From Methanobacteriota archaeon (GTDB lineage: Archaea > Thermoplasmatota > Poseidoniia > Poseidoniales > Thalassarchaeaceae): a DNA stretch of 39,826 nucleotides. The DNA lies in contig BPDA01000009.1 of NCBI GenBank assembly GCA_019654055.1, positions 1 to 39,826 of the forward strand. Direction: 5' to 3'. Made by a program: the position numbers and the translations under genes. The first letter of the stretch is position 1. Each line of letters starts with the position of its first letter. Below the pieces are notes generated by a model. It was not told the origin of the DNA. It saw only the letters and a program-made list of their open reading frames with translations, and searched no databases. Positions 15,891-28,284 of the stretch are shown here, one piece after another.

Positions 15891-17507
15891 ATGTCCCAGC
15901 CAATCAATGAGCCGATTCTAGGATATGTCCCCGGAAGCAGCGAGAGATTCGCCCTCATGGATGAGATGGACCGCCAGATGGGCGAAGTCGTCGAGATACC
16001 GTGCATCATCAACGGCGAAGCGGTCTACACCGGAGTCACGACTACGCAGGTCATCCCCCATGACCATGGCCACGTCATCGCAAACGTTCACTTAGCGGGA
16101 AGGGCCGAGATGGAGGCCGCCTGCGATGCGGCAGTGCAGGCCCAGCAGGACTGGATTGACATCGGTCTCGAGGGACGCTGCGCGGTTTTCGAGCGCTGCG
16201 CCGACCTTCTTGCAGGAGACTGGCGCATGAGGGTCAACGCCGCAACCATGCTGAACCAGTCCAAGACGGCCTTCCAGGCCGAGATTGACGCTGCTTGCGA
16301 ACTGATTGACTTCTGGCGCTTCAACTGCCACTACGCCCGCGGCTTCCACGACGACTTCCAACCGCTGATATCGCCTGAGGGAGTCCAGAACTCCACCGAG
16401 ATACGACCTCTCGAGGGATTCGTCCTAGCCATAACGCCGTTCAACTTCACCAGCATAGCGGCAAACCTCCCCAGTGCTCCGGCGATAGTCGGCTGCACCT
16501 CGGTGTGGAAGCCGAGCCGGAACTCGTACCATTCCAACTACGTCCTGATGCAGCTGATGATGGAGGCAGGCCTGCCGGCGGGCGTCATCAACTTCCTGCC
16601 TGGCTCGGGCGCCGAAATCACTGAGATTGCTCTGGCAAACCCCGACTTCGCTGGCCTTCACTTCACCGGTTCTACCGCGACCTTCCAAGGACTATGGCAG
16701 GAGATCGGACTCGCCCTCCCAAACCTTCGCTCGTACCCCCGTATCGTAGGGGAGACGGGTGGCAAGGACTTCGTCGTGGCCCATCCGGACTGCGACCGCC
16801 AAGGCTTGCTCGTCGCACTTCTCCGAGGGGCTTTCGAGTATCAGGGGCAGAAGTGTTCGGCGGCCAGCCGCGCCTACATCCCGCAATCGGTCTGGAACGC
16901 CATCTCGGATGACCTCTGTGCTGAGATTGGCAAGATCAAGATGGGTGACGCCCGGGACTTCACCAACTTCATGACCGCTGTGATCGACCAGCGGGCCTTC
17001 GACAAGATCACCGGATACATCGAGCGCGCTCAAGCCCGCGACTGCTGCCAAATCGTCGTCGGAGGCGGCTCTGACGACAGCGAAGGCTGGTTCATCGAGC
17101 CGACAATCATAGTCACCACCAATCCTACCTCAGAGACGATGGTAGAGGAGATATTCGGACCGGTCCTTACAGTATACGTCTACGACGACGGGGACTTCGA
17201 CGAGGTTCTGCGAATCTGCGACGAGGCATCTCCATACGCCCTTACAGGATCGATTTTTTCGAATGACGAATCCAACATACAGAAGGCGTTCGAGGCACTA
17301 CGCTTCACCGCAGGGAACTTCTACATCAACGACAAGCCGACCGGGGCAGTCGTCGGCCAGCAGCCGTTCGGAGGGGCTAGGGCTAGTGGCACCAATGACA
17401 AGGCGGGCGGCCCCCTGAACCTGCTTCGCTGGATCAGCCCGCGCTCGGTCAAGAGGGCAATCGACATCCCACAGGACTGGGGCTACCCGTTCATGGGTGA
17501 GGACTGA
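15891..17507 (+). CDS. pruA: L-glutamate gamma-semialdehyde (1-pyrroline-5-carboxylate) dehydrogenase
   Basis: This 538-aa aldehyde dehydrogenase oxidises P5C/glutamate semialdehyde to glutamate with NAD+. The catalytic Glu is in VGETGGKD (about E288) and the nucleophilic Cys in YQGQKCSAASR (about C322). ITPFNFTSIAANLP and FTGSTATFQ are cofactor-binding regions. These motifs and the length match the ALDH4 group known from mitochondria and some bacteria, not the shorter RocA form. The stop overlaps the ATG of the symporter gene (TGATGG). This suggests that the pair serves uptake and oxidation of proline or a related amino acid. Proline dehydrogenase is not in the window. Confidence 0.93.
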   Translation: MSQPINEPILGYVPGSSERFALMDEMDRQMGEVVEIPCIINGEAVYTGVTTTQVIPHDHGHVIANVHLAGRAEMEAACDAAVQAQQDWIDIGLEGRCAVFERCADLLAGDWRMRVNAATMLNQSKTAFQAEIDAACELIDFWRFNCHYARGFHDDFQPLISPEGVQNSTEIRPLEGFVLAITPFNFTSIAANLPSAPAIVGCTSVWKPSRNSYHSNYVLMQLMMEAGLPAGVINFLPGSGAEITEIALANPDFAGLHFTGSTATFQGLWQEIGLALPNLRSYPRIVGETGGKDFVVAHPDCDRQGLLVALLRGAFEYQGQKCSAASRAYIPQSVWNAISDDLCAEIGKIKMGDARDFTNFMTAVIDQRAFDKITGYIERAQARDCCQIVVGGGSDDSEGWFIEPTIIVTTNPTSETMVEEIFGPVLTVYVYDDGDFDEVLRICDEASPYALTGSIFSNDESNIQKAFEALRFTAGNFYINDKPTGAVVGQQPFGGARASGTNDKAGGPLNLLRWISPRSVKRAIDIPQDWGYPFMGED

Positions 17508-18954
17508 TGGACGTACTGGTCGCCTACGCACTTCTTCTGGGCACGCTCGGATTATTCGGTTACATCGGATACCAGGCATCGGCTGCCAAGGAAATCGAGG
17601 CTGATGAGTATCTCTCAGCCAGAGGGTCGCAGGACTGGCTGCGAATAGGGCTGAGCCTGTTCGCCTCGGGAATGGGGATATGGATTCTATTCGCCCCTTC
17701 CGAGGTCGGCTACTATGGCGGCTTCTGGGACGTCGTGGGCTATGCCGTCTCTGCCGCCACGCCATTCCTGCTGCTGGCCTATGTCGGCCCGATGATCCGC
17801 GAGAGGCTGCCTTCAGGCGTCACGCTCGCCGACTACGTACGCATCAGATTGGGCAGGCCGATGCAGGTCTATGTCGGAATAATCTCGGTGCTCTACATGT
17901 TCACCTTCCTGTTCGCCGAGTTCACTGCGATCGGGAAGGCGATGGAAACGCTATCCACAATGGAGCCGCTGATTCCGATGGCATTGGTGGGAATCGTCAC
18001 CGCGGGCTACATCTCCAGAGGGGGACTTCCCGCTTCCCTAGCTACCGATCGGGTGCAAGCATGGACCATCCTCTTTCTAGTGGTGGCCTTGCTTCTGGTG
18101 CTTTTCGGAGGTGACATCGACGGCCTGATTGCCGATGCCAAGGCATACAATCCAGAAGACTCCTGGAGCATCGGCTCGATGTCATCCATGGATTCCTTCG
18201 AATCGGGCCTAGCTCTGATAGTGGCCATCACCGCAGCAGAGATGTTCTCGCAGGGCAATTGGCAGCGGGCATGGGCATCCGAGTCCGATGAGGCCTCTGA
18301 CCAAGGGTGCATGGCTCGCTGCGGGAATGGTGCTACCGCTCGTCCTCGTGATGGGCGTCCTTGGCACCGTGGTCGCTGGACAGGGTGCGGTGGAAGATCC
18401 ATCTGCGGCATTTTTCTACCTGATAGAGGATGCAGGAACTCTCTTCGTCGCTGCATTCATCGTACTTGCCGTGGCACTAGTATGTTCCAGCGTCGATACC
18501 CTTCAGAATGCCGTGGTGGCTTCGGTCTCGCGAGACCTCAGCGACGGCTCATTGGGACTGCAAGAATGCACGCTACCTCACGATCGGCCTGATACCCATC
18601 GCGATCTACCTGGCCACCGGGCCCACAATCGCCGGATTCACGTTCGATGCGCTTAGTGTGTTCAAGATATTCCTGTTCGCCGACCTGCTCGCGGCCGCTA
18701 CTGTGATGCCCGTCCTCCTCACCCTGTGGGACAGAGTATCAGCCAAAGGCGCCCTGATGGGTGCCATCTGCGGCCTGCTATCCGTGATCGCCTACGGGAC
18801 AATCACTGAGGATATCGGGACCGGCATCGGATACGTGTTCTCGCCGACCAACGAATTCGGTCTGGCCAACCTAGATGTCTTCCTGTCGGCGGTAATCGGC
18901 TCCGCCCTCGTGACTGTGGCTGGCTCCTACGCCCTGCCCGATGAATCCGCTTGA
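17507..18954 (+). CDS. Sodium:solute symporter (SSS family), two apparent frameshifts
   Basis: This is an SSS-family membrane carrier with about 12-13 helices, probably for proline or another amino acid given its partner pruA. It is read in three frames. The frame from 17507 carries MFSQGNWQRAWASES, a typical SSS segment. The sequence continues in the next frame from about 18295 (LTKGAWLAAGMVLP) and again in the third frame from about 18565 (ARYLTIGLIPIAIY). Removing one base at each point restores 481 uninterrupted codons, and the protein reads smoothly across both joints. I therefore treat this as one gene with two single-base insertions, most likely sequencing errors, although a real pseudogene is possible. 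The stop overlaps the TTG start of the PAP2-like gene. Confidence 0.82.
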
Positions 18955-19769
18955 TTCATTTGCCTGACCGACACGCCAAGGCCGTGTTCGGCCCGCACCC
19001 ATCTAGGATTCACGCCTTGGTTATGCCTTGGAAGGGGTTCTGGCGCTCGACGTGGTCACGCCGTGAGGGGATGGGCGGATACTGGTTCCCAATCGAGATG
19101 TTCTTCTTCGGCCTGCTCTTCGTGGCCGTCCCCTACTTCGCTTCCAACAACATCGCAGCACACTACCTCGAGACTGTGTGGGACCCGGAAATCTGGCTGG
19201 ACAGGCAGATACCAGTGGTCAACTGGATGATCATCCCGTATGCCGCCCTGTACCTGTTCTACCCAGCCACACTAGCAATCAGCCCAAGGGACGACAGAGG
19301 TAGGGCCGAACTGATTCTGGCCATGCAGGGACTCATTCTCATCACCCTCTTCTGCACCTTCTTCTTCCTCGTCCTCCCTGCCGAGATTGACCTCAGGGAC
19401 CAGCTTGACATGGACTCGCTAAGTGGGATTGAGGCCTCTCTGTTCGGATTCATCCATTTCTCCGACAACCCGTGGAACGCCTGGCCCAGCCTGCACATCG
19501 TCCACTCTTACCTGCTTGCTAGGATGATGACTCTATGGATTAATCGCGAGCATGGCGAAAAGCCACTGGCGAAAGCATTCCTAGTCGTTCTTTGGGTCGA
19601 GTACGCCCTCCTGTGCGTGAGCATACTGACCACCAAGCAGCATTACCTGTTCGACCTATTTACAGGGCTCGTAACCGCCATGGTTGCTTGGAAACTGTTC
19701 GAGTACGCCCTAAGTCTCGCAGAGCGCCACTCCCCCAGCAGAATCGCTGATGAAGCGGACTGGGCATGA
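18951..19769 (+). CDS. PAP2 / Aur1-like membrane phosphatase or phosphotransferase
   Basis: This protein of about 272 aa has about six hydrophobic helices. The PAP2-superfamily active-site motifs are visible as WPSLHIVHSYLLA (motif with catalytic His) and TTKQHYLFDLFTG (second His and Asp). The first motif, with the Lys/Arg-containing stretch, is degenerate, as in the inositolphosphotransferase (Aur1/Ipt1) branch. Substrates of this group are phospholipid headgroups or lipid phosphates at the membrane. The track start is TTG 18951, overlapping the symporter stop; ATG 19023 is a good alternative. The product may act in membrane lipid turnover, but the substrate is unknown. Confidence 0.75.
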   Translation: MIHLPDRHAKAVFGPHPSRIHALVMPWKGFWRSTWSRREGMGGYWFPIEMFFFGLLFVAVPYFASNNIAAHYLETVWDPEIWLDRQIPVVNWMIIPYAALYLFYPATLAISPRDDRGRAELILAMQGLILITLFCTFFFLVLPAEIDLRDQLDMDSLSGIEASLFGFIHFSDNPWNAWPSLHIVHSYLLARMMTLWINREHGEKPLAKAFLVVLWVEYALLCVSILTTKQHYLFDLFTGLVTAMVAWKLFEYALSLAERHSPSRIADEADWA

Positions 19770-21893
19770 TTAGTTGTAAACCATCGGCAGGAAGCCGTTT
19801 GCCGCGGTTTCGCATGCATTAGATACATCGTCGAGACGTTGTAGGACTCGGTACATGTGTACGGCGGCCAGAGGATCGTCCTCGCCGATGCTGAACACGA
19901 ACCCAGCCGCCCGACTTTCTGCCAAGTCAGACTCGTGCTCAGCCAGATTGACCTGATCGATTAGATCACCTAGCTTCTCTCGGCCAGATCTGGTATATCC
20001 TGAGAGCGTCAGGTCACGCAATGCTTCGACAGTATCCTCGTAGGTAGCCGCAGTCTTAGCGACCGCTTGTGCCATTTCCTTGAGTAGGGTTTTGGCCTCC
20101 GCATTGTCATAGAGTGGTCTGAATGAGAGTTGTTCGGCGACATTTTGAGCATAGTCGGCAATTCGATCCTGGCGAGCTAGCATGTGGTAGAAATCATCAG
20201 ACCTCATCAGCAGATTCCACTTACCTGAACCGACTCTCCTTCGCAAATCATTCTTCACATTGTCAGCGTTCAATTCGGCCAATATAGTCGCCTCTATGGC
20301 TTCGCTAGGATCCTTTCCGTCTACTGCGTTGTTCACTGCATCCAACATGTGGTTGACCGTCTCCTCGACTGCCTCCGCGTGAGTGTGGAAAAGTTCGAAG
20401 TAGGTGGGAGCCCCCTTCTCAGCATCACCTCCCGCATCGGCCAGTGCGTCCTCAACGAAGATCTCGTTATCCCTAGTTACCCACATCACATAACCTACCA
20501 TCAAGAACGAAATGGGGATGATGACTAGGAGATTAATTGGATCCGACCCACTTGCCACGTATATCACCACGGATCCAAAGCCGGCAGCAGGTAGACTAGC
20601 AACCCAAGATGCTACGATTTTCCCAAATACTCTGAAATCCACATTCTTGGCACCACCTGCTAATCCAACACCAACCACTGCGCCAACAAGCGTATGAGTT
20701 GTCGAGACAGGTACCGCAAGGAACGGCATCGAGAAGAGCAGGATAGTGGTCGCTGCACCAAACTCGGCCGCGAAACCCCTTGTCGGAGTGATGTCTGTAA
20801 TCTTGTGGCCGATGGTGTCCATGACTCTCCACCCCCATGTCATCACACCAATCGCTATACCGATGCTCCCTAGGAGCACTAGCCAAGTGGGAACAGGGGC
20901 CTCGGCAGCAAGTTTTCCTCCATCGGAGAGGATTTGGTAGACCGCTGCCATCGGACCAATCGCATTAGAACGGTCATTCGCTCCGTGTGCGAATGCAACA
21001 TATGCGGCAGTGATTACCTGCAGCCAGACGAATATCCGCTCAACGCCATGGAAACCCTCCTTCTCACCCTTGAATTCGTAGTTCCTCAGAACATATGCCA
21101 GAACACCCGCGGCGATTGTCGCAATAATCAGAGCCAGAATGATGCTGTTGATCGGGAACCAGGCGTTTTCGACCATCGGATTCCAACTACCATTCTCCTT
21201 GACAGGTAACCAATCGTACTTGCTTTCTATCCAACCGTTACTCTCCGCTCTCGCGAAGAAGCCCTTCAGTGCCTTGAACTGTAGCGCGATTCCGAGGACG
21301 AAGAATGTCGGAATAGCGAGAATCGGGGCCAGCCACTTCGATCTTGCAATCGGGTCTTCGGCCTCAAGTATAGTTCCTCTAACTATGTAGAATGTGAAGA
21401 AGGCCAGCAGGCCGCCCATTAGTGGGCTCGCGACCCAAGACATCACCACCTTGCTAACGACTTCCCAGTCGATTAGTGAGGTGCTATGCTGTACCTCTAG
21501 AACTAAGCCAACTCCTAATATCCCGCCTATGATGCTGTGAGTGGTGGACACAGGAAGCCCCAGTCTGGTAGCTATGGTTAGCCAAACCGCAGCTGCCATC
21601 ATGGCAGCGATAAATGCGTACATCAGATCGTTAGCGAAGGCCGGAGATATAGTATCGAAATCCTCGATGTAGAGAATTCCCTTGCGAACTGTATCAGTAA
21701 CCGCATCCCCCGCGAAGAATGCACCAGCGAACTCAAAGATTGCAGCTACAATCACTGCTTGCTTCAGAGTTAGTGCGCGTGAGCCGACCGAAGTCCCCAT
21801 TGCATTGGCAACATCGTTGGCACCAATGTTCCAGGCCATGTAGGCACATACTGCAAGAGAGAGAATCAGAACTAGCGTCATCACTGGTTCCAT
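19770..21893 (-). CDS. PiT-family inorganic phosphate transporter with C-terminal DUF47/PhoU-like domain
   Basis: This 707-aa protein joins two modules. The N-terminal part (about 1-480) has the duplicated PiT signature: WNIGANDVANAMGTSVGSRAL in the first half and FAHGANDRSNAIGPMA in the second, with VSTTH repeated in both halves. The C-terminal part (about 500-707) is soluble and helical, with HAEAVEETVNHML, EHESDLAESRAAGFVF and LQRLDDVSNACETAANG. This matches the DUF47/PhoU-like fold usually encoded as a separate gene beside PiT. It probably moves phosphate with H+ or Na+ and contains its own regulatory domain. The gene is divergent from an AbrB-PhoU protein. Its DNA is clearly less GC-rich than most neighbours. 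Confidence 0.9.
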   Translation of the reverse strand: MEPVMTLVLILSLAVCAYMAWNIGANDVANAMGTSVGSRALTLKQAVIVAAIFEFAGAFFAGDAVTDTVRKGILYIEDFDTISPAFANDLMYAFIAAMMAAAVWLTIATRLGLPVSTTHSIIGGILGVGLVLEVQHSTSLIDWEVVSKVVMSWVASPLMGGLLAFFTFYIVRGTILEAEDPIARSKWLAPILAIPTFFVLGIALQFKALKGFFARAESNGWIESKYDWLPVKENGSWNPMVENAWFPINSIILALIIATIAAGVLAYVLRNYEFKGEKEGFHGVERIFVWLQVITAAYVAFAHGANDRSNAIGPMAAVYQILSDGGKLAAEAPVPTWLVLLGSIGIAIGVMTWGWRVMDTIGHKITDITPTRGFAAEFGAATTILLFSMPFLAVPVSTTHTLVGAVVGVGLAGGAKNVDFRVFGKIVASWVASLPAAGFGSVVIYVASGSDPINLLVIIPISFLMVGYVMWVTRDNEIFVEDALADAGGDAEKGAPTYFELFHTHAEAVEETVNHMLDAVNNAVDGKDPSEAIEATILAELNADNVKNDLRRRVGSGKWNLLMRSDDFYHMLARQDRIADYAQNVAEQLSFRPLYDNAEAKTLLKEMAQAVAKTAATYEDTVEALRDLTLSGYTRSGREKLGDLIDQVNLAEHESDLAESRAAGFVFSIGEDDPLAAVHMYRVLQRLDDVSNACETAANGFLPMVYN

Positions 21894-21940
21894 TGCACTC
21901 CCCGCATTGCCAGAGGTACTTCATGGGGAAGATGCGTAAT

Positions 21941-21948
21941 CTATATAG
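21941..21948 (+). promoter_or_regulatory. TATA-box-like element for the PhoU-type regulator
   Basis: CTATATAG, within an AT-rich run, ends 22 bases before the ATG at 21971 and is centred about 27 bases upstream. An archaeal TATA box there would place the start of transcription at or next to the ATG, suggesting a leaderless mRNA. The element is nearly symmetric and may also serve the divergent PiT gene, whose start is about 50 bases to the left. Confidence 0.5.
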
Positions 21949-21970
21949 TAATAATTAGAATCGCCGATTC

Positions 21971-23008
21971 ATGCCCATAGGGCCGGGTGAACAAGACGTC
22001 CGCAGATTGCAACTGACCGGCGGTTCGACATACACCATGAGTCTGCCCAAACCTTGGGTGTTGACGAACAATCTCTCCGCTCGGGATGGCATCCGCGTTG
22101 AATGGAGGCCAACAGGAGAACTTTCCCTTACTCCTCTAGATGTGCCAGAGGAGATAAAGACGCTCGTCGAGCTGAATCTTGACAGAATTCCCGAAGGTGC
22201 ATTGTATGATCACCTGATGGGAGCGTATCTCTCAGGGGCCCGCGAGATTTCGGCTCAAAGTGAAATTCAGTTTAGCCGAGAAATTCGCAGCGAGATACGC
22301 AGGTTCCTCCGTTCTACGAGAGGGTTTGAAATCGGAGAACAATCGGAAACCAGTGTACATCTGATTAGCCTTCTGAATGCAGGAGAGCTCCCTCTCCACG
22401 CAAGTCTGAACAGGATGTACCTACTACTATCATCCTTGGTTCGTGACACGTTTGAAGTCCTTACAGGGTCCGATGATGAGTTGATTTCTGATTTCGAAGA
22501 ACGAGAGAGGGAAGTCGATGGTCTACATTATTTGATCGAGAGACAAGTTGGTTCTATGCTGGATTCACAGCAAGTTGCTAGGTCGCTTGGATTGGGTAGG
22601 AAGCAAGGTGTTGAACACGCCAATCTTGCAAGGTCACTGGAGCGAATGATGGACCACGCGCACGAGATGGCTCGCCTAACATTGGAGACGACTCCCCGGC
22701 CACGCTTGAAGTCCGAAGAATTCCCTCTTTCCGCACTGCCTATGTGGATGGACGCGCAAAAATCTCTGATGATAAATCTGCGAACTCATGACTCCTATCA
22801 GATAGAAGAAGCACGCGATTCGCTGAAAGCCGCACAATTGTCTCTAAAAGAGCACGAAGAGGGCCTCTGGACCGGACGGAGAAAAGCCTCCCGCTTGCTT
22901 TTCGAGGATCGGATATCTGAATCGATTCGTCGGATTTGCGCCTATTCGAGAGATTTTGGGGAGATTCTGCTCAATATGATTGCATACGATTCCATCCAGC
23001 GCGAATGA
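21971..23008 (+). CDS. AbrB/PhoU-domain phosphate regulator
   Basis: This 345-aa cytosolic protein begins with a SpoVT/AbrB-like segment, VRRLQLTGGSTYTMSLPKPW, the hallmark of archaeal PhoU-type regulators. Two PhoU-like three-helix bundles follow: EEREREVDGLHYLIERQV in the first, and DRISESIRRICAYSRDFGEILLN in the second. PhoU proteins sense phosphate status through the transporter and hold it in check; the AbrB part suggests DNA binding. Both the position, divergent from the PiT gene with only 77 bases between, and the TATA-like element fit a joint phosphate regulon. The DNA is less GC-rich than most of the window (43-53% in two sampled 60-base lines against 63% in purA). It converges on the thioredoxin-CcdA gene. 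Confidence 0.85.
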   Translation: MPIGPGEQDVRRLQLTGGSTYTMSLPKPWVLTNNLSARDGIRVEWRPTGELSLTPLDVPEEIKTLVELNLDRIPEGALYDHLMGAYLSGAREISAQSEIQFSREIRSEIRRFLRSTRGFEIGEQSETSVHLISLLNAGELPLHASLNRMYLLLSSLVRDTFEVLTGSDDELISDFEEREREVDGLHYLIERQVGSMLDSQQVARSLGLGRKQGVEHANLARSLERMMDHAHEMARLTLETTPRPRLKSEEFPLSALPMWMDAQKSLMINLRTHDSYQIEEARDSLKAAQLSLKEHEEGLWTGRRKASRLLFEDRISESIRRICAYSRDFGEILLNMIAYDSIQRE

Positions 23009-23011
23009 GCG

Positions 23012-24458
23012 CTAGAAAAGGGCGGCAACCTTCTCAGGCTGGGTCAAGTAAACCAGTAGCCCTATCCCGGCGAACATCATCATCCACGCACCGGTCGCCT
23101 TGACTATCCCAGTAGACCGCCGTAGGAAATCTAGCATGGCCTGCCTCCCCATCCCGACCAGCGCTGTAACCGTAATCATGAGCAACGTCACTGAGAGGAT
23201 GAGTCCGGCCATCCCGAAGGCGAAGGCACCGTTTCCGACCACTGCGAGCCAAGCAACGAACGGGAAGACCGCCGCGGCGGTGCAGTCGACCGAGGCCGCA
23301 CTGTAGCCTATGCCCCACAGGTACATGTTGCGTCTAGGTGTGAACTGCTCATCCATCTCTGTGGTCTGATAGCTGTCCAGTGCCCCTTGGACCCAGTTCA
23401 GCAGGTGAGAGGTCCATCCCAGAAGCATCAGGGCACCGAGAATTACCAGCAACCATGCAATGGCAATCGCGATGTCATGCAAAACTCCGGAGAGGTCAAT
23501 GATTTCGTCAAGTCCGAAGATGACAGCTCCTACCGCACCGAAGAAGGTCAGTTGACCTAGTGCAGCGTAGCCGCCGACCTCAATAGGCTTGGGCATGCTG
23601 CCAGAGAGCTTGCCCGCCTCTCGCAGTTCGTCCTCCCTCATCCCGAGATTGAGGTAGTACGCGATGTATGACGGAAGGACCGGGAAGGCGCACGGCGAGA
23701 AGTATACTAGGATACCCAAAAACAGGCCGATTACGAATACCCCTGAGAGCGATCGATCGGCCTTCTCAATGCCGAAGCGCAGGTCACCCGCCTCGCCAGC
23801 ATTGGCGCTAGCAACTGCCGAGTCGAATGACGACCAACCATCAAGCGGAGTCCCGGTGTTCTCCTTGGCTACGGCATAGCCCTCGTGGTCGACCACAATC
23901 ACCAGTGGGATGGCCTGGGCCGAGTAATACTCGACCAAGTCCCCTGTGCTACCATCCTCGAGGATTACGACGTCAGGGCCCTCCGTTGGCCACGGGCCAC
24001 GGCATATGCTTGTCAGAGCCGGTGTCGCCGAAGGTCCCGTTGATGTCGTCAAAACTCTCGTAGCCGTACCAGGACCCGATTGATAGTGCCACTACCCCGT
24101 ACGGGCCGTCGAGAGCCTGCCAATCCCCGAGACTCTGGTCGATGTGTGTCTGGACGTAGTGGCAGTTGGTGCAGTCGACCGCCATGAAGTCGAGGACCAC
24201 CACGCTCCCTCGCAGGTCCGAGAGCCGTACCATACCGGAATCGTCGGCGACAGCATCGTCTATCCCCGTCCGGTTCATCGTCGCGACCTCGAAGTCAGGA
24301 ACCTGTTCTATGTCGTCGGACACCCCATATGCCGATGCTGAGAGGCCAAACAGAGACAGTGAGGCGTAACCTATGATGCAGAACAGCACGACCCCGACGC
24401 CGAACGCCTGCCAAGTCTCCTTCTGGCGCAGAACCCCGAAGTCTAGTCCCGCCACCAT
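23012..24458 (-). CDS. Thioredoxin-like / CcdA (DsbD-type) fusion protein, one apparent frameshift
   Basis: The reconstructed protein is 481 aa. A signal-anchor helix (VGVVLFCIIGYASLSLFG) is followed by an extracytoplasmic thioredoxin-like domain with DCTNCHYV as its CxxC site. A CcdA-like six-helix module follows, with the paired redox Cys motifs FSPCAFPVLPSY and SVDCTAAAVFPF. CcdA proteins pass electrons from cytosolic thioredoxin across the membrane, and the fused domain is the likely receiver. The track splits the gene at 23973/24052. Removing one base in the GGGCCC run near 23976-23981 restores the frame, joining PWPVANGGP to DVVILEDG. The track's first start (24557) would run to the base next to tRNA-Val, so ATG 24458 is preferred. 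Confidence 0.85.
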
Positions 24459-24557
24459 GAAACGCCGAATTAGGGCCGACTTTTGATTCCGGCGGGAGTA
24501 GTGCTCCCGAGACGAGTCATCACGCTTATTGCCGAATCGCGGCTGGCAACGGGCCAC

Positions 24558-25343: not shown

Positions 25344-26432
25344 TCAGCCGTGACGTGACTCAAAGTCACGCATGAACCCAACTAGGGCCTCGACGCTCTC
25401 AATGGGGCATCCGTTGTACATGCTGGCGCGTATTCCACCCACGCTGCGGTGCCCCTTCAGCCCACCAAGCCCGATGCCGCGGCTTCGGCTAAGAACGCCC
25501 CTTCGAGATCCTCGTCAGATAAGCGCCATGTCACATTCATCACCGAGCGCGAGCCTCCATGCGCGTGCGGGCGCCAGAAATCACTCCGGTCGAGCTCATT
25601 GTAGAGCAGGGCCGCCTTGGCGCGATTACGCTCGATGGCGCCCTCTAGTCCGCCGTTACGCTCGATCCAGGCAAAGACTCTGTCGAGAACGAAAATCCCG
25701 AAGGTGTTCGGAGTGTTGAACATCGAGCCCTTGGAGACGTGAGTGTGGTAGTCGAGCATGGTGGGTATGCCCTGTATACCTCGGGACAGGGCCCAAGGTG
25801 AGAGGATTACCAGCGTCACGCCGCTGGGCCCGAGGTTCTTCTGCGCCCCGGCGTAGATGACATCGTGAGCGGAGACGTCCAACGGGACACCGCATATGTC
25901 CGAACTGGCATCCACGACCCTCGGCTTGCCACCGCTGTCAGGGAGGTGGTGGAACTGGGTGCCATACAGCGTGTTGTTCGAGGTGTAGTGGAAGTAGGCA
26001 GCATCCTTGCGGATGGAGTAGTCCCCGTCCTGCGGGACCGATCTGAAGCCGTTGTCTGAATCGTCCCAGACCGAAGATGCATCCCCCACCCTGCTGGCCT
26101 CCTCGAGCGCCTTCTGGGACCAGCCACCTGTGACTAGGAAATCCGCCTTCTGCCCCTCTTCCATCAGATTAAGGGCAGTCATGTAGAACTGCGTCGAGGC
26201 GCCCCCCTGTAGGAACAGGACCTCGTAGTCCTCTGGGACAGATAGAACCCTCCTGATTCGCCTCCGCCGAGTCGATGACGCTCTGGAACGTCGGGCTGCG
26301 GTGGGACACCTCGAGCAGCCCGAAACCGCTCTCATCCAGATTGGGTAGCTCCGCTGCCACCTCCTCCACCACTTCCAGAGGCAGCACAGCTGGTCCGGCG
26401 CCGAAGTTGTGGATACGACCGGCAGGTTGCAC
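25344..26432 (-). CDS. serC: Phosphoserine aminotransferase, two apparent frameshifts
   Basis: This PLP enzyme of serine synthesis converts 3-phosphohydroxypyruvate and glutamate to phosphoserine. The reconstructed protein is 362 aa, the normal SerC length. Visible signatures are [13 protein letters not shown] at the N-terminus, [25 protein letters not shown] with the Schiff-base Lys, and [15 protein letters not shown] at the C-terminus. The track shows only two fragments. One extra base near 26255-26262 joins SVIDSAEA to [11 protein letters not shown]. One missing base near 25460 joins ASGLVG to LKGHRSVGG, and the real stop is at 25344. I prefer a GTG start at 26432 over ATG 26489 because it leaves more promoter space before the divergent pdxT. 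Confidence 0.88.
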
Positions 26433-26513
26433 GCCCCGACGCGCCCGCTTCGGGCCTTTCAGCCCATCGGAGCCCACGATAGGGTTCATTTTCGGGTGGC
26501 CGGACGGACAGTC

Positions 26514-27116
26514 GTGCTCCGCATAGGCCTCGTCATGCTGCAAGGCGCCCGACACGTCCACATTGCGGCGCTACAGCGAGCCGCAGATGAGTGCGACATC
26601 GAGATTGAGGTGCACGAACTGCGCAAAGCCTCGGACCTAGCGGCAGCCGACCCTCATGCAATAGTGCTGCCCGGAGGCGAGTCCACTACAATGCGACTTA
26701 CCGGGAACCACGATACATCCAGGCTTCTACCAGCTCTTTTCGAATGGATTCGTTCGGACTCATCTCGCCCGGTGCTTGGCACCTGCGCGGGCGCGATACT
26801 GCTGGCCGACCCTCGGGATGGCGGCGACCCTCTGGTGGACGCCGACATCGACCGTAATGCGTACGGGCGGCAGGCAGACTCCTTCCAGAGCACCCTCGAG
26901 GCCACCATCCTAGGGCGCGACTTCCCAGGCGTGTTCATCCGGGCACCGCGATTCGAATCGCACAGTGAGTCGGCAACGGTGGCAGCCATGCACGGTGAGG
27001 AGGTTGTGGGAGTCAGGACTGGAAACAGGCTCGCCCTGACCTTCCATCCGGAACTATCCTCTGACACCGGCTTCCACCGCTGGCTGCTTGAGACCGCCGC
27101 AGGTGCTGGGTCATGA
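26514..27116 (+). CDS. pdxT: Pyridoxal 5'-phosphate synthase glutaminase subunit PdxT
   Basis: This is the class I glutamine amidotransferase that supplies ammonia to PdxS for PLP synthesis. Visible family elements are IGLVMLQGARHVHIAAL at the N-terminus, LPGGESTTMRLTG (the oxyanion/substrate motif), the nucleophile Cys in GTCAGAILL (about C91), and FHPELSSD with the catalytic His and Glu. The track start at 26409 lies inside serC on the opposite strand. GTG 26514 gives MLRIGLVMLQG, the expected N-terminus, and 200 aa. The stop overlaps the start of the radical SAM gene (ATGA). PdxS is not in this window. Confidence 0.92.
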   Translation: MLRIGLVMLQGARHVHIAALQRAADECDIEIEVHELRKASDLAAADPHAIVLPGGESTTMRLTGNHDTSRLLPALFEWIRSDSSRPVLGTCAGAILLADPRDGGDPLVDADIDRNAYGRQADSFQSTLEATILGRDFPGVFIRAPRFESHSESATVAAMHGEEVVGVRTGNRLALTFHPELSSDTGFHRWLLETAAGAGS

Positions 27117-28284
27117 GCGTCACACTCAGTCTGCCGCAGGTGCCAGAGTTGCACGAGCCTCCCGAGGAGGCCGACGCAGAGGGCTGTATTCAGTGCCAGA
27201 TGGGTAGCAAACTGGTCCTTTTCATCACGGGCAACTGTCACTGGCGCTGCGACTACTGCCCCCTTTCAGAGACCCGCCGCGACATCGACCACATGTTCGC
27301 CAACGAGCGTCGCTGTGAGAGTTTCGACGAGGTCATCGAGGAGGCGAGGGCAATGCGTGCCACAGGTGCTGGAATCACCGGCGGCGATCCCTTGATGGCT
27401 CGAGAGAGAACGCTCGAGGGGATTAGGCGACTGAAGGCCGAGTTCGGCACGCAGTTCCACCTGCACATGTACACCAGCATCCCGTTCCGTCCCGAGGGGG
27501 CCCGTCCGAGTTCGCCGAGGCCGGGCTCGACGAGATACGATTTCACTTCCTCGACCTCGCGGCCGAAGAGTACCGAGAGACTATCGCGGCCTGCTCCGAA
27601 TCGGGGATTCTGACTGGAGTCGAACTGCCCTGCGAGCCAGACAAGGAATCAGAACTGTTCGAGCTGCTGGACGCCCTGAGGGGATACGATATCGACTTCC
27701 TCAATCTCAACGAGCTTGAAATCACGGTGGGCAACATCGACAACATGGAGTTACGCGGATTCAACCTGTCGACCGAGATAACCGCTGGTGCCGCGGGCTC
27801 CGCAGAGCTCGCCCTAAATCTACGAGATCGCGTGATTGCCGCATCGAACGGCCTCCCCGATCCGATTGACGGAGAGACGAGAGAACCCTATGGGTATCAC
27901 CTGAAGTTCTGCACGGCGGTCTACAAGGACGCCGGGCAATTGCGGAGGAGGTTCCAACGCAGGGGCGAAGCGACCATCGCGCCTCACGAGACGCTGACTG
28001 ACGACTCCACCCTGATGTTCGGCGCCGTCTACTCCTCGGAGGAGGACCAAGAGTCGTGGAGAGGGGAAATCGCAGAGCAGACTGGCCTGCCGCAGAGATT
28101 CATGCTGTGGGACCCCGAAAACCATCGCATCGAACTCCCTCTGGTGGTGGCCGAGACGATAGCCGAGCACGTTGACGCACCAGTGGCTATGGTAGAGGTC
28201 ACCCCGACCTTCGAGAGGATGGAGGTGACCGTTGTCTGGCTCAACGACCAAGCATCGGGTGAGCACTCCTCGTTGGGTTCATAG
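27113..28284 (+). CDS. Radical SAM protein, COG2108-like, one apparent frameshift
   Basis: This radical SAM enzyme of about 390 aa (reconstructed) resembles the uncharacterised archaeal group related to pyruvate formate-lyase activating enzyme (COG2108). The cluster motif is CHWRCDYC (C42, C46, C49; CxxxCxxC). An extra CIQC pair lies just before it. ITGGDPL is the glycine-rich SAM-binding motif. The track splits the gene. Adding one G to the run GGGGG at 27496-27500 joins SIPFRPE to SEFAEAGLDEIRFHF and restores the frame through to 28284. The start overlaps the pdxT stop (ATGA), which implies translational coupling. No function is known; a link to PLP or nucleic-acid chemistry would be a guess. 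Confidence 0.83.

Follow-up and report, generated by a model that had tools for sequence, protein, structure and literature searches.

We consider it probable that the gene pair described here is a phosphate-import locus of the Thalassarchaeaceae (MGIIb, order Poseidoniales) which would be controlled by an AbrB-PhoU protein via a 24-bp element, and that the chromosomal slot in which it lies evolves by recombination. The window, by which we mean the whole stretch of 39,826 nucleotides that was analysed, is contig C9 of a 1.3-Mb draft genome, 73% complete and with several frameshifts; this genome is labelled G000 and its genus, with 13 genomes, g1. The named relatives of the PhoU gene come from assemblies of Marine Group II/Ca. 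Thalassarchaeaceae. Two intact divergent open reading frames are found, a PiT-DUF47 gene on the reverse strand (positions 19770 to 21893) and an AbrB/MazE-PhoU regulator gene of type A on the forward strand (21971 to 23008), their start codons separated in the ORF list by an intergenic region of only 77 bp (21894 to 21970), the sequence of which was compared over some 50 loci. To the left lies a PAP2-superfamily phosphatase-like membrane protein (18951 to 19769, forward strand; Pfam PAP2_3) and to the right a DsbD-like membrane protein with a thioredoxin-like N-terminus (23012 to 24557, reverse strand; AhpC-TSA match), both of which are, by synteny, conserved borders of the slot. The DsbD gene is frame-split in the ORF list, as are a sodium-solute symporter (17507-18954), a SerC-like gene (25457-26561) and a radical-SAM-like gene (27113-28284); these splits are probably errors of the draft assembly, PiT and PhoU being intact.

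From its domains, motifs and structure model, PiT-DUF47 is a predicted phosphate transporter with a cytosolic PhoU-like DUF47 domain fused in the same chain. Pfam places PHO4 over the full membrane part (residues 23-439, E 9e-113) and PhoU_div/DUF47 over residues 501-704 (E 3e-18), and the PDB sequence homologues of the two halves, 6l85 (a phosphate transporter) and 2iiu (PhoU-like), are separate proteins, whereas in the Poseidoniales they are fused. Both GAND signature repeats of the PiT family are present, GANDVANAMG being invariant and GANDRSNAIGP conserved among 30 homologues, and the motifs D576xxxD580 and E652xxxD656 of the helical DUF47 domain are likewise invariant. The model consists of a membrane part (residues 1-472, the last helix ending near 472), a weakly modelled linker (473-497) and the DUF47 helical bundle (498-706). 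As no Pst system was found in the window genome or its genus (13 genomes, several of them incomplete), PiT is probably the main orthophosphate importer. A second PiT-DUF47 type, 58-62% identical, occupies the same slot without PhoU at loci L142, L150, L155 and L158 (genomes G081, G032, G016 and G014, respectively), and in G121 (C8, 88294-91754) the PiT matches are split into six pieces, the copy probably being decayed or rich in errors.

The partner protein has both the fold and the E/DxxxD motifs of a PhoU protein; Pfam assigns PhoU to residues 146-236 (E 1e-11), the model matches PhoU 1xwm with a TM-score of 0.78 by target length (Foldseek), and E179xxxD183 and E224xxxD228 are invariant. Its MazE/AbrB match, at residues 14-36, is sub-threshold in the window protein (E 0.02) and the confidence of the model is low over the first 20 residues; the match recurs, however, in 30 of 34 homologues, with a best E of 9e-10. 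Of the original prediction, a compact divergent pair and a transporter carrying its regulatory domain in the same chain (PHO4 and PhoU_div in one open reading frame) are upheld, and a partner with an AbrB-like N-terminus is probable. The fold and motifs are those of the PhoU proteins of Pst systems (PDB 1xwm, 1t72, 4q25), but here an AbrB/MazE-like domain is probably attached, and type A occurs in genomes without a detected Pst system. PstB matches were found in 21 of the 148 family genomes and in none of genus g1, and Pst was detected in none of the 26 type-A genomes but in 20 of the 52 with types B or C (Fisher 7e-5, although related genomes are not independent). A partnership with a Pst transporter was thus not seen for type A, several genomes being incomplete, and as no PstB match was obtained for the window genome, the rest of g1 or any of the 26 type-A genomes, the regulator is regarded as a PhoU-domain protein and not as a Pst-associated PhoU. 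A phosphate ABC binding subunit has been reported in only some MGII subclades (PMC6336850), and a Pyrococcus catalogue counts PhoU-like proteins among transcription factors (PMC6316755); nothing specific on archaeal AbrB-PhoU proteins was found in the open-access literature.

In relatives across the family the transporter sits between the PAP2 and DsbD-thioredoxin genes, and the divergent PiT-PhoU arrangement is also found in the Poseidoniaceae, that is, order-wide; because of this synteny and this spread the pair is taken to be long established and no mobile island, for which varying insertion sites would be expected. PhoU-A, present in both families, is old. No integrase-like ORF was noted beside the pair in the ORF list of the window. 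What does vary is the content of the slot, which may be PiT alone, PiT with a type-A or a type-B PhoU, PiT with a type-B PhoU together with pstS, pstCA, pstB and in places phoU or, in one case, a type-C PhoU with Pst and no PiT. In the sister species G005, G006, G009, G011 and G012 a PhoU match is absent genome-wide, and PiT lies about 40 bp from DsbD. Type-C AbrB-PhoU was seen at L175 (8900-14802; G120, genus g9), which is the locus without PiT and adjoins a Pst operon, and at L168 (8973-9968; G038); it clusters with Poseidoniaceae sequences, suggesting transfer between families. In g7 genomes (L099, 12800-15057; L097, 15520-17778) the phosphate genes are separated from DsbD by two thymidylate-kinase-like genes and one that resembles a membrane permease.

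The spacer contains a 24-bp element, GTAATCTATATAGTAATAATTAGA (21936 to 21959, forward strand), which includes the TATA-like CTATATAG and which genome counts, shuffles and spacing indicate to be the likely operator of AbrB-PhoU, anchored on PiT. It occurs once per genome in 28 of the 148 family genomes, always adjoining PiT or PhoU-A; no further copies were found in those 28, and thus no wider regulon was seen, whilst shuffles of the window gave 0 chance matches. All but two of the 26 type-A genomes carry it, the exceptions being G015, where the contig is truncated and the upstream sequence missing, and G036, which has a diverged copy. It is absent from the PhoU-less sister species, which retain the TATA-like element that precedes the PiT ATG by about 20-30 bp (reverse strand, 21914 to 21923 in the window; GGTACTTCAT on the forward strand); this is kept in alleles with and without PhoU, and we presume it to be the PiT promoter element. 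In both families the core of the 24-bp element, TAATCTATATAG, begins at a distance of 42-44 bp from the start of PiT, or of 49 bp where an alternative PiT start is taken. Most type-B loci have the core at the same spacing, with three mismatches or fewer in several, whilst the phoU start is about 70 bp further off, and in g8 genomes whose PhoU lies elsewhere the element is still found beside PiT, as in G074, where PhoU is 3.4 kb away. It is this fixed distance to PiT, held while the phoU start shifts or PhoU sits elsewhere, which argues for a PiT-anchored operator read by AbrB-PhoU.

The same element could instead be the core promoter of phoU alone (BRE, TATA and start region) and no PiT operator. 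In type A, CTATATAG precedes the phoU ATG by 30 bp, as would be expected of the TATA box of a leaderless archaeal gene, and as the element overlaps this likely promoter, part of its conservation may be that of a core promoter; the overlap with the likely TATA box also suggests autoregulation. A promoter of phoU would not, however, be expected to hold its distance to PiT as the type-B and g8 sites do, and the conservation runs 11 bp beyond the TATA box and shows 0 mismatches in comparisons of genera that are saturated at synonymous sites. We therefore judge the core promoter by itself to be a rather unlikely explanation and retain the operator as the preferred one.

The low GC content of the phosphate genes had been noted from the sequence, and is confirmed; GC is 50-53% over 19.5-23.0 kb against about 60% elsewhere in the window, the two genes themselves having 50-52% in a 60% GC contig. 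GC3 is 56% in PiT-DUF47 and 51% in PhoU compared with 69-77% in flanking genes and a genome median of 73%, and among 275 ORFs sampled from 16 stretches of 20 kb of the same genome PhoU ranks 9th and PiT 21st lowest. This is, however, their usual state in high-GC relatives and, contrary to what had been proposed, no sign of foreign origin: every high-GC host has a PhoU that is poor in GC, and the PiT of the PhoU-less sister species is similarly low. Across relatives the GC3 of PhoU climbs half as fast as that of neighbouring genes, and in a family-wide regression of gene GC3 on flank GC3, which led us to reject GC as evidence of transfer, the window PhoU lies 0.5 SD and PiT 1.7 SD below expectation. 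A low-GC island inserted from outside the order would account for the difference in GC between genes and contig, but the gene order is the same family-wide, relatives are found order-wide and the GC fits the gene's own trend; synteny rules out such an insertion, and we attach practically no probability to it.

The phylogeny, in contrast to the GC content, is out of line with that of the genome, as had been anticipated. In the tree of the flanks the window lies beside G006, within a group (G005, G006, G009, G011, G012 and G002) in none of which PhoU was found (SH-aLRT 99, 98). With PiT residues 1-480 it joins the PhoU-carrying clade of G001, G003, G004 and G010 (99/97), and its grouping with the PhoU-less species is rejected (AU 2e-8), whilst with residues 520-707 it is back among the PhoU-less species together with G025 and G088 of genus g4 (97/98). 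The left breakpoint falls at PiT residue 518 (position 20339; 8 of 8 parent pairs agree, permutation p<=5e-5) and its right-hand counterpart at 23060, within the final codons of DsbD (6 of 6 parent pairs agree, without a p-value). Breakpoints and discordant trees thus delimit a 2.7-kb tract (20339 to 23060) which holds PiT residues 1-518, the membrane part among them, the spacer, PhoU and the last ~16 DsbD codons, and differs in ancestry from its flanks. As the tract groups with the PhoU-carrying clade, and the flanks and the DUF47 half with the PhoU-less sisters, allelic homologous recombination in shared flanking sequence appears to shuffle the slot. Of the predicted transferable cassette, then, the transfer stands, in so far as alleles are exchanged, and the free-moving unit does not, the slot being syntenic across the family and the arrangement order-wide; to judge from the sequences, the locus stays where it is and its alleles move, the breakpoints falling within PiT and within DsbD.

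Either the window lineage regained PhoU or its sister species received a PhoU-less allele. A recent donor among the sampled PhoU-carrying species was not supported; in DNA the tract still differs by about 20%, and its synonymous distances come close to the values for the flanks (0.58 at 4-fold sites to the PhoU-carrying clade, against 0.60-0.69 in the flanks). If the direction were reversed, the window would have kept the ancestral PiT-PhoU-A, and a PhoU-less PiT allele would have reached the sisters, spread among them and entered g4 (G025/G088). In agreement with this, PhoU-A is old, and it is the PhoU-less PiT N-half which is the outlier, its 4-fold-site distance to the window (0.73) exceeding that of every flank and its grouping extending across genera to G028, G156 and G162 (g7) and to G025 and G088; in G025, moreover, the C-terminus of a PhoU-B survives in decayed form between PiT and DsbD. 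On the other hand, about three separate replacements would be needed, as G006 is the closest relative of the window, and only with the PhoU-carrying clade correctly placed (support 85) is the number of steps the same as for a gain, so that we give this direction a little less than an even chance. A chimeric assembly of two co-occurring species has also to be considered with a draft metagenome assembly and several frame-split genes in the window. Both breakpoints, however, lie within open, in-frame coding sequence, the tract is close to no sampled genome (PhoU is 75-81% identical in nucleotides to that of the PhoU-carrying clade) and the g7 genomes G161, G162 and G164 have similar breakpoints within PiT, at residues 465-488, close to the linker that precedes DUF47; a chimera is accordingly improbable, and recombination between alleles is the reading followed below.

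Further exchanges are seen at the same slot. The PhoU of G086 (genus g4) is 93% identical to that of the window whilst the flanks are 54-86% identical, its GC3 lies 2.9 SD above its host and its 4-fold-site distance to g1 is 0.46-0.49 against 0.66-0.76 in the flanks; the membrane part of PiT in this genome is native in the tree, and PhoU, from these comparisons, is evidently an import between genera. In G025 and G088 both halves of PiT are nested among g1 sequences.

In the mechanism which we propose, PiT-DUF47 would import phosphate by ion coupling, its activity probably being tuned by the PhoU-like domain fused to it, and AbrB-PhoU would act as a one-component regulator, the PhoU half of which would sense phosphate or metal status or contact the DUF47 half of PiT. 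The AbrB half is predicted to bind the 24-bp element between the two genes and, at this site just upstream of the PiT TATA region, would switch PiT on or off, and it may control its own gene through the overlap with the phoU TATA-like box. Slot alleles with or without PhoU would be exchanged between species and genera by homologous recombination at the conserved flanks. More speculatively, and with distinctly less confidence, the PAP2-DsbD slot as a whole may be a plug-in site for phosphate control, at which alleles with PiT alone, with AbrB-PhoU-A, with AbrB-PhoU-B with or without Pst, or with Pst and AbrB-PhoU-C in place of PiT are exchanged across species and genera by homologous recombination, the fixed-distance operator letting an arriving regulator control the resident PiT at once.

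The closest parallel is ‘Ca. Nitrosopelagicus brevis’, in which Pst and Pit are exchanged at one location beside phoU, the gene with the highest FST (PMC9239043). There too importers of marine archaea substitute at one locus adjoining phoU, and Pit has a DUF47 partner; however, Pit is encoded apart from DUF47 in that species and the alternatives are exchanged between its ocean populations, whereas here the two form one chain, the regulator has a probable AbrB-like domain and exchange occurs among Poseidoniales species and genera. The phosphate islands of HIMB59 alphaproteobacteria (PMC10734472) resemble the slot in their fixed position, alternative phosphate gene sets and horizontal replacement, but they are bacterial, always have pst and mostly PhoRB, and their distribution tracks phosphate. 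Proteorhodopsin in Ca. Poseidoniales (PMC6461757) is a case from the same order of replacement at the same location, with homologous recombination proposed; its function is different, and here the breakpoints have been located inside genes. No description of the AbrB-PhoU/PiT slot or its element in Poseidoniales was found in the open-access papers searched.

The uncultured archaea of Marine Group II abound in surface oceans, and we know of no mechanism by which they sense phosphate. The locus supplies a regulator, a 24-bp candidate site and natural gain and loss variants for phosphate control in this group, and with these in hand such control becomes testable in vitro. It also gives a second archaeal lineage in which the importers of phosphate are swapped at a single fixed position.
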